Below are positions 7,765 to 12,809 of a stretch of DNA of 64,000 nt, in pieces (within the stretch, counting starts at the first letter, position 1; every line of letters begins with the position of its first letter). The stretch comes from Cyclobacteriaceae bacterium (lineage in GTDB: Bacteria > Bacteroidota > Bacteroidia > Cytophagales > Cyclobacteriaceae): NCBI GenBank assembly GCA_026129485.1, contig JAHCHY010000008.1, forward strand, positions 120,657 to 184,656, written 5' to 3'. A program made the position numbers and the translations under genes. Under the pieces are notes generated by a model, which had not been told where the DNA came from, made no database searches, and worked only from the letters and a program-made list of their open reading frames with translations.

Positions 7765-9177
7765 CTATGCTTTTGCCCCGTACCACTTTATATTTTTTGA
7801 AAAATACATCAGCAATCCTATAATCAGGAACAAGCCAATGCTGCCGATCAGCAAGCTGAAGTCCTGCGCCTGAATGATGATGAAGATAAACGTATAAAAC
7901 GAAGCCATTAAGAGCGAGAACAGCAGCACAATTGATCTGCTCCTGAGAAAGCTGGATGAATACAACGTAACCAGGACGGTGGTAGCCACCGAAGCAATGG
8001 CATAAGCCGCGTTGTACCCAACCTGCTCGGAGAATGACAACAACAGCGTATAGTAAATGATCAACGCGGCACCAATCAATATATATTGAAAAGGATGAAT
8101 GCGGGTTTTGGTAGTGATCTCTACCAGGAATAACGCAGTGAAAGCAAGCAGGATAATCAACTGACCATATTTGGCTGTCCGTGTGCTTTTCTGATATTGA
8201 TCAGCCGGAATCAACAAACGCACGCCAAATTCAGAGCCGGACAAGGATTGTTCCCGATCGACCCACTTCTGTGAAAACGGCCGGTTAAACGAAAGCACTT
8301 TCCATACAGCCGAAAACCCGGAATCTGTTATGTTGTGTTCAGGCAACAGCTTGCCTTCAAAGCTGGGTGATGGCCACGCACTGGTTGATGTAACTTCCGT
8401 TGATTTTCCGGTAGGAACAAAATACAAGCTCTCGCTGCCCTTCAGGTTAAGCTGAAGGCTTACGTGTAATGTTCCACCCGGACGGGTTTGCCAACGCAGC
8501 GGTGAAATAATACCGCTTACCGCAGGTACATCAGCAGTGGTAGCAACCGCGCGGCTGGCAGACCGGTTTACATATTGATTTACCTGGATACCAATATCGC
8601 TGAGCGGCTCCGATACCAGCAAAACATGCCCGGCCTTTACAACCGGGTTTTCACCAATACCCCGCAGGTCAGAAATCCCGTTCAACAGCACGGCTTCATG
8701 CCAGTGCACCTGCTCATCTGGAATGCTCCACGTGGAAAAATCCGGAACGGCAAATTGCGCCTGCATATCAATATCGCTTTTATACAGCACTACTTCGAAT
8801 ATCCCCCGCTTGCGCACCTCCGTGCTGATATCCGTTTTAACCTGGTAATCTTCGGGTAAAAAATAAGCGTCATGATCGCGTTCAATAATCTCCTCCACCT
8901 GTTTGCCCTCATGCCAGGTTTTAATCTTTTCCTTTTTGGTGAACGGAATGCGCAGCACCGGGCCTGATAACATTTGGGGCCCCGACCATTTATCAGATAC
9001 TTCGCGTATCACTTCGTCTGCCCGGTATTGCCGCTCGCGAATCAGGTCTTCAATCCATGAAGCCGGGATGAGCAGGGTGAGAATAAGAAAGCCGATTGAA
9101 AATAGTTTTACCATAATGGATTCTGTAATCCATTGGTTAAAGCGTTCGAACACGCTGGGAGTTGGTTGTGTTTCCAT
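7765..9177 (-). CDS. creD: Cell envelope integrity protein CreD
   Basis: 470 residues matching CreD. A first membrane helix (VKLFSIGFLILTLLIPASWI) is followed by the characteristic ERQYRADEV and GPQMLSGPVLRIPF, a large periplasmic domain to about residue 330, then about five C-terminal membrane helices. CreD is an inner-membrane protein; in enterobacteria it belongs to the CreBC regulon and affects beta-lactam and colicin tolerance. Here no CreBC two-component system is near. Instead it lies downstream of a winged-helix regulator and a membrane protein, a common Bacteroidota arrangement. A TAACTTTT box and an AAAGTACTTT palindrome lie just upstream, so it probably has its own regulated promoter. 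Confidence 0.92.
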   Translation of the reverse strand: METQPTPSVFERFNQWITESIMVKLFSIGFLILTLLIPASWIEDLIRERQYRADEVIREVSDKWSGPQMLSGPVLRIPFTKKEKIKTWHEGKQVEEIIERDHDAYFLPEDYQVKTDISTEVRKRGIFEVVLYKSDIDMQAQFAVPDFSTWSIPDEQVHWHEAVLLNGISDLRGIGENPVVKAGHVLLVSEPLSDIGIQVNQYVNRSASRAVATTADVPAVSGIISPLRWQTRPGGTLHVSLQLNLKGSESLYFVPTGKSTEVTSTSAWPSPSFEGKLLPEHNITDSGFSAVWKVLSFNRPFSQKWVDREQSLSGSEFGVRLLIPADQYQKSTRTAKYGQLIILLAFTALFLVEITTKTRIHPFQYILIGAALIIYYTLLLSFSEQVGYNAAYAIASVATTVLVTLYSSSFLRSRSIVLLFSLLMASFYTFIFIIIQAQDFSLLIGSIGLFLIIGLLMYFSKNIKWYGAKA

Positions 9178-9199: not shown

Positions 9200-9209
9200 A
9201 AAGTACTTT
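9200..9209 (-). promoter_or_regulatory. AAAGTACTTT palindrome, candidate operator of creD
   Basis: A perfect 10-bp palindrome, 22 bp upstream of the creD ATG. On the minus strand it begins 6 nt after a -7-like TAACTTTT (9216-9223), so it should cover the transcription start. The same palindrome occurs at exactly the same spacing upstream of the 9643-10266 gene, which flanks the other side of the regulator gene. Confidence 0.6.
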
Positions 9210-9215
9210 GTATTT

Positions 9216-9223
9216 AAAAGTTA
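9216..9223 (-). promoter_or_regulatory. -7-like box (TAACTTTT) for creD
   Basis: Seven of eight positions agree with TAnnTTTG. It lies between the regulator stop (9238) and creD, implying that creD can be transcribed separately from the regulator gene. Confidence 0.5.
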
Positions 9224-9237
9224 GTGAATAAAATTTT

Positions 9238-9540
9238 TTATTTTCGTTGCTGGCGAATTAATTCTTCCATCGCATCCAGATGCTTTTTAAAAGCCGACCG
9301 GCCCCGCTCGGTGATTTTATAGCGCGTGTTCGGCTTGCGCTCAACAAATGTCTTGTTAACCGAAAGGTATTTCTCCCGCTCAAGCGCCTTCAGGTGGGTA
9401 GCCAGGTTGCCATCCGTTGTATCCAGCAGCTCTTTCAATGCATTAAAATCGTATGATTCATTCGCTACCAGTACCGATACGATGCGCAGGCGTAACCGAT
9501 GTTCCAGGATTTTATCGAGATTATCGAACGGGTTTTTCAT
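9238..9540 (-). CDS. Winged-helix transcriptional regulator of the creD operon
   Basis: 100 residues: LRLRIVSVLVANESYDFNALKELL, then TTDGNLATHLKALEREKYLSVNK and a wing with NTRYKITERGRSAF. This is the winged-helix DNA-binding fold of short MarR/ArsR-like proteins that accompany creD in Bacteroidota. There is no sensor domain or cysteine site. It sits between the membrane protein gene (102 bp upstream) and creD (60 bp downstream), all on one strand. It is the obvious candidate to bind the AAAGTACTTT palindromes found on both sides of it; that link is inference. Confidence 0.85.
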   Translation of the reverse strand: MKNPFDNLDKILEHRLRLRIVSVLVANESYDFNALKELLDTTDGNLATHLKALEREKYLSVNKTFVERKPNTRYKITERGRSAFKKHLDAMEELIRQQRK

Positions 9541-9571
9541 CTGTTACTGATTTCTTGTCTTAGGCCACACA

Positions 9572-9591
9572 CCTGCCTGTCGGCAGACAGG
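9572..9591. repeat. Short imperfect palindromic repeat, REP-like
   Basis: CCTGCCTGTCGGCAGACAGG is an imperfect palindrome in the gap between the membrane-protein gene and the regulator gene. Sequences of this type recur between genes in many Bacteroidota genomes. A related CAGACAGGCAGGTCTG lies near 27904. Confidence 0.5.
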
Positions 9592-9642
9592 GAATGGTTA
9601 AGACTATCATCATACTCTGGGAGTCGACTTATGTTAACTATT

Positions 9643-10266
9643 TCATCCGTCATATTTCTTATACATCAGCGCACCATACAAAATGTGAAGCACACCAAAA
9701 CCGGCAGCCCAGAAAAATAAACCATAACCCGGCAGCATGGCCGACACAAGCCCCAGCACAATTTCGGAATACCCCAGGTACCGGATTTCATCGAACAAAT
9801 TAGCGCTGGCATTCAGCAAAGCTAAACCATAAAATATAAGACATGCAGGTGCAGCCACACCATAATGTCCATTCCATAATAAGATAAGAATAAAAAACGC
9901 ACCGGTTATTAATGGTATGGCCAGGTTAATTACCAATCGCTTGCTGGTCGTATTCCAAACCTGAACGCCCTGCTTTTTTGCTTTACGATTTGCCATGATG
10001 TAGCCGGTTACCAGGGAGAGCGCCAGTACGGCCAGCGCAATGCCCAGTAGCTGGATAACCACATCCCAATCGCGCATAGATTGCTGCCTGTAATCAAGCG
10101 GTGATAACGGATACTGCACCTGTATATAAGCCACCAGCGCACCGGCAAGGGCATATACCCCGGCCAGTATGCCCGATAAACCGCTGAGCGATAAAAACTT
10201 TACCGACCGCTCCATGAGCTGGCGGATGGATTCCAGGTCTTTCTGGTAGGATTCGTTTTGGCTCAT
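9643..10266 (-). CDS. Six-helix membrane protein of the creD operon
   Basis: 207 residues. A short cytoplasmic N-terminus (QKDLESIRQLMERSVKFLSL) is followed by about six hydrophobic segments, with a basic cytoplasmic loop (IMANRKAKKQG) after the second. No catalytic motif is visible and I cannot name the family. It is the first gene of a unit that continues with the winged-helix regulator and creD, so a role in envelope homeostasis alongside CreD is likely by context. It has a very good promoter (TTTG, 18 nt, TAACTTTG) and an operator-like palindrome at the transcription start. Confidence 0.75.
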   Translation of the reverse strand: MSQNESYQKDLESIRQLMERSVKFLSLSGLSGILAGVYALAGALVAYIQVQYPLSPLDYRQQSMRDWDVVIQLLGIALAVLALSLVTGYIMANRKAKKQGVQVWNTTSKRLVINLAIPLITGAFFILILLWNGHYGVAAPACLIFYGLALLNASANLFDEIRYLGYSEIVLGLVSAMLPGYGLFFWAAGFGVLHILYGALMYKKYDG

Positions 10267-10268
10267 AA

Positions 10269-10280
10269 AAAAGTACTTTT
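10269..10280 (-). promoter_or_regulatory. AAAAGTACTTTT palindrome, candidate operator
   Basis: A perfect 12-bp palindrome 3 bp upstream of the membrane-protein ATG. Its core AAAGTACTTT (10270-10279) starts 6 nt after the -7 box, the same geometry as at creD. Confidence 0.62.
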
Positions 10281-10285
10281 AAAAA

Positions 10286-10315
10286 CAAAGTTATTGTACG
10301 TTTCGCGGTTACAAA
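10286..10315 (-). promoter_or_regulatory. Promoter of the membrane protein-regulator-creD unit
   Basis: On the minus strand: TTTG (-33, plus 10312-10315), 18-nt spacer, TAACTTTG (-7, plus 10286-10293). This is a near-ideal Bacteroidota sigma-A promoter. It leaves a very short leader before the ATG at 10266. Confidence 0.72.
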
Positions 10316-10394: not shown

Positions 10395-10468
10395 TCCTCC
10401 TTAGCTCAGCTGGTTAGAGCACCTGACTGTTAATCAGGGGGTCCTTGGTTCAAGCCCAAGAGGAGGAG
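10395..10468 (+). tRNA. tRNA-Asn (GTT)
   Basis: 74-nt cloverleaf with acceptor TCCTCCT/AGGAGGA, D-arm GCTC/GAGC, anticodon stem CCTGA/TCAGG, loop CTGTTAA giving anticodon GTT, and T-loop TTCAAGC. Discriminator is G; CCA is not encoded. It is followed directly by a strong terminator. Confidence 0.96.
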
Positions 10469-10472
10469 CAGG

Positions 10473-10499
10473 ATCCCGCGAAAGCGGGATTTATTTTTT
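10473..10499 (+). terminator. Intrinsic terminator of tRNA-Asn
   Basis: Stem ATCCCGC/GCGGGAT closed by a GAAA tetraloop, followed by TTATTTTTT. Confidence 0.85.
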
Positions 10500-10793
10500 G
10501 AAGGTCATCCGGTTCACATTATTCATCCGAACAAATTCTTTTAAAGTCTATAATTCCCATTTCCCAGCAGAGTCTCACGCCTCGTGGACTCTGCCATTTT
10601 ACTATGTTGCGGATGCCTTATTAGTTCACTTCTAAATTGAAAAAATAAGCCATAATGACTGTATTTCAGGCATTTTAAAATCAATTCAAGACAAAAAGTC
10701 CTGAAAAATCACCCGAAAACCCATCGGCACACTTTTCACAGGTAGGGATGATGTGATTTTAAAACACATGTCAAACCTTAAAAAATTAATACT
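10500..10793. other. Intergenic region upstream of hsp20
   Basis: About 290 bp with no convincing ORF. It contains a strong hairpin at 10567-10594 and AT-rich sequence before the hsp20 start. I see no CIRCE (HrcA) element. Confidence 0.4.
10567..10594. repeat. Strong hairpin in the hsp20 upstream region
   Basis: GCAGAGTC, a one-base bulge, CACG, a 3-nt CCT loop, CGTG and GACTCTGC give 12 paired bases. It is not followed by a proper T-run on either strand, so it is not an obvious terminator. It lies 200 bp before hsp20. Confidence 0.5.
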
Positions 10794-11222
10794 ATGAACA
10801 TCATTCGTTATAACACTAACGACTTTGCGCCTGCATCGTTCAGCGCTTTGGTAGATCGTTTCTTTAACGATTCCATTACCCGTGCCGGTGGTTCTGCATT
10901 CGTACCCAAAACCGATGTGGTTGAAACTGCCGATACGTACGAAGTACACCTGGCGGTGCCCGGCCTGAACAAAGAAGACTTTAACATTGAAGTGAACGAC
11001 AACCACCTTACCATCAGTGGTGAGCGTAAATTTCAGAACGAGAAGAAAGAGAAGAGCTATCATGCCATTGAAACACATTTCGGCTCTTTCAGCCGTTCGT
11101 TCACATTGCCTGAAAATGCAGATGCTTCCAAAATCAACGCCCGTTACAACAACGGCATACTGGAAGTAACCATTCCGAAAGACGAAAAGAAAGTATTGAA
11201 GCAGACCATTAAAGTGAGCTAA
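10794..11222 (+). CDS. Small heat shock protein, Hsp20/alpha-crystallin family
   Basis: 142 residues with a complete alpha-crystallin domain: KTDVVETADTYEVHLAVPGL, the LTISGERKF strand, the short N-terminal arm (ALVDRFFNDSI) and the C-terminal GILEVTIPK with an extension ending TIKVS. These ATP-independent chaperones hold unfolding proteins during heat stress, in large oligomers in the cytoplasm. Length and motifs are normal. It is monocistronic: a tRNA terminator lies upstream and a strong terminator downstream. No heat-shock operator is recognised. Confidence 0.95.
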   Translation: MNIIRYNTNDFAPASFSALVDRFFNDSITRAGGSAFVPKTDVVETADTYEVHLAVPGLNKEDFNIEVNDNHLTISGERKFQNEKKEKSYHAIETHFGSFSRSFTLPENADASKINARYNNGILEVTIPKDEKKVLKQTIKVS

Positions 11223-11254
11223 GAAGCCTTAACGTGGGGTTAGGTTAGAGGTAA

Positions 11255-11289
11255 GCGTCCCTTCCGGAAACGGGGGGACGCGTTTTTTT
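11255..11289 (+). terminator. Intrinsic terminator of hsp20
   Basis: GC-rich hairpin GCGTCCC...GGGACGC with an inner CCG-GAAA-CGG, followed by a run of seven T, 33 bp past the hsp20 stop. Confidence 0.85.
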
Positions 11290-11378
11290 ACGGCTCACCG
11301 GATTATTCTTAAAAAAATCTGTTTTGCGTAACATCACTTTTTAACAATAGCCGTACCTTACCTGTAAAGAGAGTTGAT

Positions 11379-12809
11379 ATGAAGCGTTCGTTATTGATCT
11401 TGCTGGTAGGGTGCTCAGCTTTTATTGGCGCCATAATCGGGGCAATATTTACCCTGAAGTATTTTGACGCAGGCCCTGCCTACAGCTCTATTGAAGCGCG
11501 ACAGAACCTGAAGCTTGCCAGCTTCACACCGGATTCTGCACATTATCCCGGGGGAGCTCCCATCAATTTTGAAACGGCTGCCAGGCTGGTTACACCAGCC
11601 GTGGTACACATCAGCACGATTTATGGCGGGGGTAAATTCAGCCTGAATGCATTAGAACAGTATTTCAATCCGCACGCCAAATCATCAGGTTCAGGGGTAA
11701 TTATTTCAGATGATGGCTACATCGTTACCAACCATCATGTAATTGAAGATGCCAATTCAATCGAAGTTGTGCTGAATAACAACCAGCGTTTTTTTGCCAA
11801 GCTGGTAGGCCAGGATCCCAGCACCGACCTGGCGCTGCTTAAAATAAAAGCCCGTAATCTTCCTTTCGTAAAGTATGGTAACTCCGATAACATCACCACC
11901 GGTGAGTGGGTGCTGGCTATCGGCAACCCGTTCGATCTTAATTCAACTGTAACAGCCGGTATTGTAAGCGCCAAAGCCCGCAACATTGGTATTCTTGGCG
12001 ACCGGAATAATTTACAGGTGGAGTCTTTCATTCAAACCGATGCGGCCGTAAACCCCGGCAACAGTGGTGGCGCATTGGTCAATCTGAAAGGTGAATTGAT
12101 TGGCATTAACTCGGCCATTGCTACTGCTACCGGAAATTATAACGGTTATTCCTTTGCGATACCGGTTAGCTTAGTGAAAAAAATAATGGACGATCTGCTT
12201 GAGTTTGGCACCGTGCAACGCGGGCTGTTGGGTGTTCAGATCAACAATGTAACGCCCGACCTGGCCGAAAACCGTAACCTGGATGTAGTGCAGGGTGTAT
12301 TTGTCAGCTACGTAAACAAAGGCAGTGCGGCAGAAGCATCCGGCATTAAATCGGGCGATGTGATCATATCCATTGATAATCACCTGGTGTCAGGTGTTTC
12401 GGAATTGCAGGAGCGGGTAGCGCGCAAACGCCCCGGCCAAACGGTTTTGGTAAAATACCTGCGCAACGGAGTGGAGCAGGAAATAGTTTCGAAGCTAAAA
12501 AGCTTTGACGGATCGGAAGAAGTGCGCGCACGTGCCGTGCGTTATGAAATGGAAGGCGCACACTTTGAAGATGTGCCTTACTCCCGGCTCAATGAGCTTG
12601 GCCTGGATGGTGGCGTGCTGCTGAAAAAACTCGAATCCGGAAAATGGAAAGCAGCAGGAATAAAACAAAACACGATCATTACCCATATTGATAAAGTAGC
12701 TATCGACAATGTGAAAGACCTGAATCGCGCTATGGAAATGAAAAAGGGGGGCGTGCTGGTTGAAGGTATATTACATGGCGAGAAGCAGACCGTTGGGATG
12801 GATTGGTAA
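11379..12809 (+). CDS. HtrA/Deg-type periplasmic serine protease
   Basis: 476 residues. An N-terminal hydrophobic segment (SLLILLVGCSAFIGAIIGAIF) exports or anchors the protein. The trypsin-like domain has the full triad: His in YIVTNHHVIEDA, Asp in STDLALLKI and Ser in VNPGNSGGALVN. Two PDZ domains follow: the first around GLLGVQINNVTPDL to GDVIISIDN, the second (residues about 400-476) shorter and more divergent. Such proteases degrade misfolded envelope proteins. It lies just after hsp20 but is separated by a terminator and has its own 90-bp leader region. The assignment is firm; whether it is DegP-, DegQ- or DegS-like cannot be decided. Confidence 0.93.
   Translation: MKRSLLILLVGCSAFIGAIIGAIFTLKYFDAGPAYSSIEARQNLKLASFTPDSAHYPGGAPINFETAARLVTPAVVHISTIYGGGKFSLNALEQYFNPHAKSSGSGVIISDDGYIVTNHHVIEDANSIEVVLNNNQRFFAKLVGQDPSTDLALLKIKARNLPFVKYGNSDNITTGEWVLAIGNPFDLNSTVTAGIVSAKARNIGILGDRNNLQVESFIQTDAAVNPGNSGGALVNLKGELIGINSAIATATGNYNGYSFAIPVSLVKKIMDDLLEFGTVQRGLLGVQINNVTPDLAENRNLDVVQGVFVSYVNKGSAAEASGIKSGDVIISIDNHLVSGVSELQERVARKRPGQTVLVKYLRNGVEQEIVSKLKSFDGSEEVRARAVRYEMEGAHFEDVPYSRLNELGLDGGVLLKKLESGKWKAAGIKQNTIITHIDKVAIDNVKDLNRAMEMKKGGVLVEGILHGEKQTVGMDW

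Follow-up and report, generated by a model that had tools for sequence, protein, structure and literature searches.

The window analysed here, a stretch of 64,000 nucleotides from a Cyclobacteriaceae genome, carries on its minus strand a gene for a 207-aa membrane protein (9643..10266), here called MP; its model shows an N-terminal helix and six further helices. It is followed by the genes for a 100-aa HTH_34 winged-helix regulator (9238..9540; Pfam PF13601, E 3.4e-28) and for the 470-aa cell envelope integrity protein CreD (7765..9177; Pfam PF06123, E 3.9e-140; NF008712). CreD scores 467.9 bits against PF06123 (gathering threshold 23) and 451.1 bits against the NCBIfam equivalog NF008712 (cut-off 275). 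For MP, no Pfam family passed the cut-off, a scan of 37 members at E values up to 1 returned weak and scattered matches, and no PDB fold matched the model at an E value below 0.33. The MP and regulator genes are separated by 102 nt, and this gap holds a small palindromic repeat, CTGTCTGCCGACAG (9577-9590), of which the genome contains eight exact copies and 14 when one mismatch is included, against one for the reversed control. Divergent from the operon, the region 10395-12809 carries tRNA-Asn and two ORFs that by eye resemble a small heat-shock protein and a DegP-like protease.

The regulator aligns over residues 16-95 with the complete HTH_34 profile (positions 1-80 of 80; 98.1 bits, gathering threshold 27) and is modelled as a winged helix with a pLDDT of 92.7. 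HTH_34 is the best of the five Pfam families that match it; LytTR is not among these five. The closest solved structure, both by sequence (E 5.1e-13) and by fold (rank 1, TM 0.82), is the archaeal protein PH1061 of Pyrococcus horikoshii (1ub9). We know of no operator or membrane partner for PH1061, and a search of the open-licence literature found no relevant paper on it. Fold neighbours include the HxlR, PadR (Rv3488) and MarR winged-helix regulators, which are small, dimeric and often autoregulating; winged-helix autoregulators are a known kind. Yet the window regulator fits HTH_34 far better than either HxlR (PF01638; 23.3 bits, just above the gathering threshold of 20.8) or PadR (22.9 bits).

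Two candidate operators lie on the same strand. Operator 1 (10270..10291), before MP, consists of ACTTTG (10291-10286), a 5-nt spacer, AAAAGT (10280-10275) and ACTTT (10274-10270). Operator 2 (9200..9221), before creD, consists of ACTTTT (9221-9216), a 5-nt spacer, CAAAGT (9210-9205) and ACTTT (9204-9200). The original prediction had described twin motifs with 6-nt spacing on the minus strand at 10293-10270 and 9223-9200, with the winged-helix gene between them. Both motifs do read this way, as TAACTTTG-TTTTTA-AAAGTACTTT and TAACTTTT-AAATAC-AAAGTACTTT, and the gene (9540-9238) is placed as claimed. Searching the whole window for TANNTTTN7AAAGTACTTT with up to two mismatches returned these two sites, both without a mismatch, against 0.42 matches expected; two matches were reached in 8 of 100 shuffles. 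The palindrome AAAGTACTTT itself has two exact copies in the window. A different operator, the CreB box, reads TTCACN6TTCAC. It has no exact copy in the window and none with one mismatch within 4 kb of creD; the five one-mismatch copies in the window (4.06 expected) leave the interval between 3455 and 25684 empty. CreB-box control of this creD was therefore rejected.

Anatomy and promoter position of the site

The first half-site of operator 1 sits on the -7 box of the MP promoter, TAACTTTG (10293-10286, minus strand), as ACTTTG overlaps the -7 consensus TAnnTTTG. In the accessible text of PMC9723704, the -7 box of Flavobacterium psychrophilum promoters occupies -12 to -5. This position would place the whole candidate operator at about -10 to +12 and the palindrome at about +3 to +12, a correction to the prediction that the palindrome covers the transcription start. 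A TTTG at 10312..10315 (minus strand), read from the sequence, is a candidate -33 element of the MP promoter, and in the position profile of the relatives a T/TG peak recurs at roughly this distance, at -23 to -21 relative to the first site base. Promoters after the regulator gene show no TTG -33 peak. They carry (e.g. in L179-L254) a conserved A/T tract whose end, TTTA, lies about 7 nt ahead of the site.

Position profiles were built from 123 of 125 MP sites and from 113 of 134 sites before the gene after the regulator (at most four mismatches). They define the conserved unit as ACTTTG-N5-CAAAGT-ACTTT: three half-sites, the first of them on the -7 box. The first two form an inverted repeat, with 11 bp from one half-site centre to the other, and the third follows directly, without a spacer. 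Across the 123 MP sites, 11 of the 17 half-site positions are unchanged, and the five spacer bases are loose. This unit begins 2 nt inside the motif of the original prediction and leaves the -7 TA outside the near-invariant core. Before MP, the second base of the TA varies (T in 86 and A in 34 of 123 sites), and before the gene after the regulator both bases do; the half-site, not the TA, is thus the conserved element.

This anatomy bears on the palindrome AAAGTACTTT, which had been proposed as the operator: two half-sites belong to it, but the conserved unit is larger. Five natural variants (L219 and L250; L228, L231 and L238) keep ACTTTG-N5-CAAAGT with at least two mismatches in the third half-site, and among the loci examined no variant keeps the second and third while losing the first. 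The palindrome is therefore probably not the primary dimer site. We doubt it as the primary operator on account of these five variants, while single mismatches point the opposite way, affecting the first half-site in 31 sites (mostly before the gene after the regulator) and the third in 14. The site in L056 has one mismatch in the first half-site and two in the third. Variant operators with A at position 12 or T at position 6 make up 23 of 46 MP sites in one regulator clade, 0 of 74 in the other and 1 of 3 unassigned ones, a concentration that is confounded with descent.

The same profiles speak to whether the element might be an extended core promoter, recognised by an RNA polymerase that carries a particular sigma factor, instead of an operator. 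The overlap of ACTTTG with the -7 consensus and the T/TG peak of the MP promoters would fit such an element. However, the -7 TA is unconserved before the gene after the regulator, while the inverted repeat and the part beyond the start are nearly invariant; furthermore, a sigma factor would explain neither the symmetry of the repeat nor its loss together with one regulator. We regard a core promoter as highly improbable.

The distance from the stop codon of the regulator gene to the start of the site is nearly constant (12-16 nt in 102 of 110 sites). The distance from the end of the site to the MP start codon is 1-7 nt in 119 of 123 MP starts, and for creD and other genes it is mostly longer (rows read by eye). 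An element acting at the RNA level was set aside, because the start-codon distance differs between gene classes while the promoter position is fixed.

Conservation of the site and its link to the regulator

The site was surveyed in 134 loci (L041-L098 and L179-L254) collected via the regulator protein and not via the motif. This set is conservative, since the 76 loci L179-L254 were picked for not carrying the first exact pattern. MP adjoins the regulator gene in 131 of the 134; the longest ORFs overlap in 107 of these 131, and a gap of more than 20 nt occurs in six. Nine loci were dropped from scoring at the MP start, owing to no MP match (L057, L217 and L228) or too little upstream sequence. 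Among the 125 that were scored against a 19-position consensus, 123 have a site with at most three mismatches (none in 17, one in 82, two in 19 and three in 5); the two MP starts without a good site (L249 and L250) have six mismatches in one case and eight in the other. The best of 2500 shuffled regions reached four mismatches twice and never three, most lying at seven to nine. Before the gene after the regulator, a site with at most three mismatches is present in 110 of 134 loci and absent from the other 24; where this gene is creD, it is present in 75 of 82. The family also contains a second HTH_34 group (35-40% identical), for which four loci (L255-L258) were read, none with an MP neighbour.

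In the own genome (4,075,102 bases, 40 contigs), the full element occurs exactly three times: before MP, before creD and before an ORF for a 190-aa membrane protein (G000:C37:141115). The inner repeat ACTTTG-N5-CAAAGT is confined to these three places, whereas its reversed control occurs at seven. The palindrome AAAGTACTTT occurs at seven places versus 18 for the reversed control, and is thus not itself over-represented; of the five places outside the window, four are without promoter-like context (by eye) and one is the third near-identical copy. The autoregulated two-promoter operon that had been predicted is well supported by the presence of the element at the same place in orthologous operons, by the element's rarity in the own genome and by its tracking of the regulator (see below).

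Site-bearing genes also occur beyond the MP-HTH-creD operon. The 190-aa ORF (L005 1470-898, G000:C37) has no Pfam match, and an ORF downstream of it on the same strand resembles, by eye, the MPAB-type protein found behind a site in L412. In relatives, the site precedes genes for DUF4153, DUF1361, DUF2809 and DUF218 proteins, a YaeF/YiiX-type amidase, a Coq4-like protein, an MPAB-type protein, an XrtN-system VIT protein, a weakly DoxX/MauE-like protein, a TPR protein, small unnamed proteins and (by eye) an ABC ATPase; some of the site-bearing genes encode no membrane protein. A set of 80 family stretches that entered this survey is a sample and no full census, matches not reading TAACTTTG being partly left out; some (e.g. 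L012, L028, L035, L037 and L040) were examined solely as 3-kb loci. The XrtN-system VIT protein lies behind the candidate operator in L139 (TIGR04477 tested) and in L156, L159 and L417 (by eye), which would tie the regulon to the exosortase N system. Two sites close together precede creD or other genes in L103, L111 and L404.

Presence of the site follows presence of the regulator. The 196 family genomes comprise 133 with both, three with the site only, four with the regulator only and 56 with neither, two genomes with a partial regulator match (G095 and G120) being counted as regulator-bearing. The corresponding numbers for 395 phylum genomes, where the regulator was called at 131 bits or more, are 105, 11, 13 and 266, an agreement in 371 of 395. 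In some of these tallies, genomes with no match listed are counted as having none. The Fisher p-values of 2.7e-40 (196 genomes) and 3.3e-67 (395 genomes) overstate independence, because the genomes share descent, and the co-occurrence is partly trivial, as most sites belong to the operon that encodes the regulator. Chance was rejected as the source of the site: it is present in 136 of 196 and 116 of 395 genomes, versus 11 of 196 and 11 of 395 for the reversed pattern. Among the phylum genomes, all 13 with the regulator only carry a one-mismatch site, and in four of the 11 with the site only (G386, G450, G505 and G585) a more distant HTH lies directly at it.

These tallies also weigh on whether the site is bound by another transcription factor, for which the HTH_34 gene would be just one target. 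Three site-bearing family genomes without a detected HTH_34 ortholog would fit such a factor: G093, which is split over 380 contigs and has three perfect sites, G108, whose site is atypical, and G119, which is 60% complete. The link between HTH_34 and the site is, moreover, drawn from sequence. Against it stand the agreement of site and regulator in 189 of the 196 genomes, the site beside the regulator gene even in divergent loci of other phyla, and the state of creD when no regulator is detected. Nine of the 59 family genomes without a detected regulator keep creD, and in all seven that can be evaluated creD has no site, the best match over the whole stretch having five or six mismatches; G093 is one of the seven, its sites lying elsewhere. 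The remaining two are outside this count: G115 is cut at a contig end, and in G069 the contig breaks off at the position of the regulator gene, with a one-mismatch site at this end. Conversely, creD still carries the site in G015 and G611, where it is on another contig than the regulator. On balance, we consider a different factor quite unlikely, and the HTH_34 protein the better candidate.

An exact-site scan with one genome per species gave 117 stretches, 80 of which were listed and read. With phyla taken from the record titles, these 80 hold 103 exact sites, 91 of them in Bacteroidota (68 stretches): 37 before MP, 18 before creD, three before the 190-aa family, 15 before another gene directly after the regulator and 18 before other genes, so that 73 of the 91 fall in the first four classes. 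Outside Bacteroidota, the stretches listed include 12, with one exact site each, and six of these sites lie beside an HTH/MP-like pair, one locus in each of six lineages. These are Ignavibacteria (L351; MP 231 bits, HTH 139 bits), Aminicenantes (L370; HTH 93 bits), an epsilonproteobacterial MAG (L424; HTH 84 bits), an Anaerolineales MAG (L398; HTH 68 bits), a Microbacterium genome (L413; HTH 61 bits) and a Planctomycetota MAG (L367; HTH 74 bits, MP 21.5 bits). In L370, L424, L398 and L413, the MP profile gave no match, and the MP-like gene was assigned from its size, its position and its N-terminus. In L367, the exact site lies just after the HTH ORF, and MP is preceded by one with two mismatches. 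In the loci from Anaerolineales and Microbacterium, the third half-site flanks the repeat on its opposite side, making the inverted repeat the common element. Five of the six regulators are divergent, at 61 to 93 bits versus about 129 to 168 bits for the Bacteroidota matches listed that also carry an MP match, which argues against contamination by Bacteroidota DNA.

Of the other sites outside Bacteroidota, the one in a Thermotogota stretch (L356) falls within an ORF, with an HTH pair 2 kb away. In two Planctomycetota stretches (L392 and L393), neither of which contains an HTH, the site lies at the start of ORFs that are alike by eye. No HTH/MP pair was seen in L352, L355 and L396, whose sites are probably due to chance. 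L367 and a Puia MAG (L373) have an exact site before near-identical N-termini, MKMILPALTEAKSP, and the gene may thus be a shared target.

A candidate envelope repressor and its predicted regulon

We consider it likely that the HTH_34 protein binds the three-half-site operator and acts as a repressor of its own MP-HTH operon as well as of creD and further envelope genes. A dimer would first contact the inverted repeat ACTTTG-N5-CAAAGT, whose 11-bp centre spacing is close to one helical turn, and the third half-site ACTTT may extend or strengthen binding. Because the -7 box and the transcription start lie within the operator, the bound protein would block RNA polymerase there. Besides its own MP-HTH operon, it would repress creD and further envelope-related genes by acting on additional site copies. 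Further predicted targets are the 190-aa membrane protein in the own genome and, in relatives, DUF4153, DUF1361, DoxX-like and XrtN-system VIT proteins, among others. MP, in turn, would be the likeliest partner to relay an envelope signal to the regulator.

Repression is the most likely direction, and the overlap of the operator with the -7 box is the sole pointer to it. Since direction is read from site position, the regulator might activate instead, or bind solely together with a partner, with its link to the site intact. Promoters after the regulator gene, having an A/T tract and no TTG -33 peak, might be weak and need such help. However, a first half-site on the -7 box with the rest on the start region, as placed by the accessible text of PMC9723704, would be typical of a steric repressor, and we hold activation to be unlikely.

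As a repressor of creD, the HTH_34 protein would differ from CreBC, the closest known control of creD. In Gammaproteobacteria, creD encodes an inner-membrane protein that is needed for envelope integrity and is controlled by CreBC, according to the accessible text of PMC4689548. There too creD has its own regulated promoter, but control is by a two-component system, unlike the one-domain winged-helix neighbour and unrelated operator found here.

For the pairing with MP, the LytTR regulatory systems HdrRM and BrsRM offer a parallel: a small regulator is co-produced with a membrane protein that controls it. Their DNA-binding domain is LytTR, in contrast to HTH_34, and that MP would likewise control its regulator is a prediction from conserved adjacency. 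A literature search limited to open-licence papers found, among the papers listed, no description of the regulator, site or regulon, and a narrow search of such papers found no operator assigned to an HTH_34 protein.

The pairing of site and regulator across Bacteroidota and in a few genomes elsewhere is indicative of a circuit that controls bacterial membrane proteins. More tentatively, and somewhat short of an even chance, the circuit may be a cross-phylum, kinase-less switch, in which a six-helix MP and a one-domain HTH_34 repressor, encoded by neighbouring genes, signal from membrane to DNA: they would sense the state of the envelope and, by way of the inverted repeat with its third half-site, set creD together with lineage-specific membrane proteins. 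CreD and many of the other site-bearing genes encode membrane or envelope proteins of unknown role. The near-invariant site predicts, genome by genome, which of these orphan membrane proteins would be switched together (creD, DUF4153, DUF1361, the 190-aa family, DoxX-like and XrtN-system proteins), and it names a candidate regulator behind them. The system would also offer a simple test of whether a small membrane protein communicates with a DNA-binding partner in Bacteroidota.
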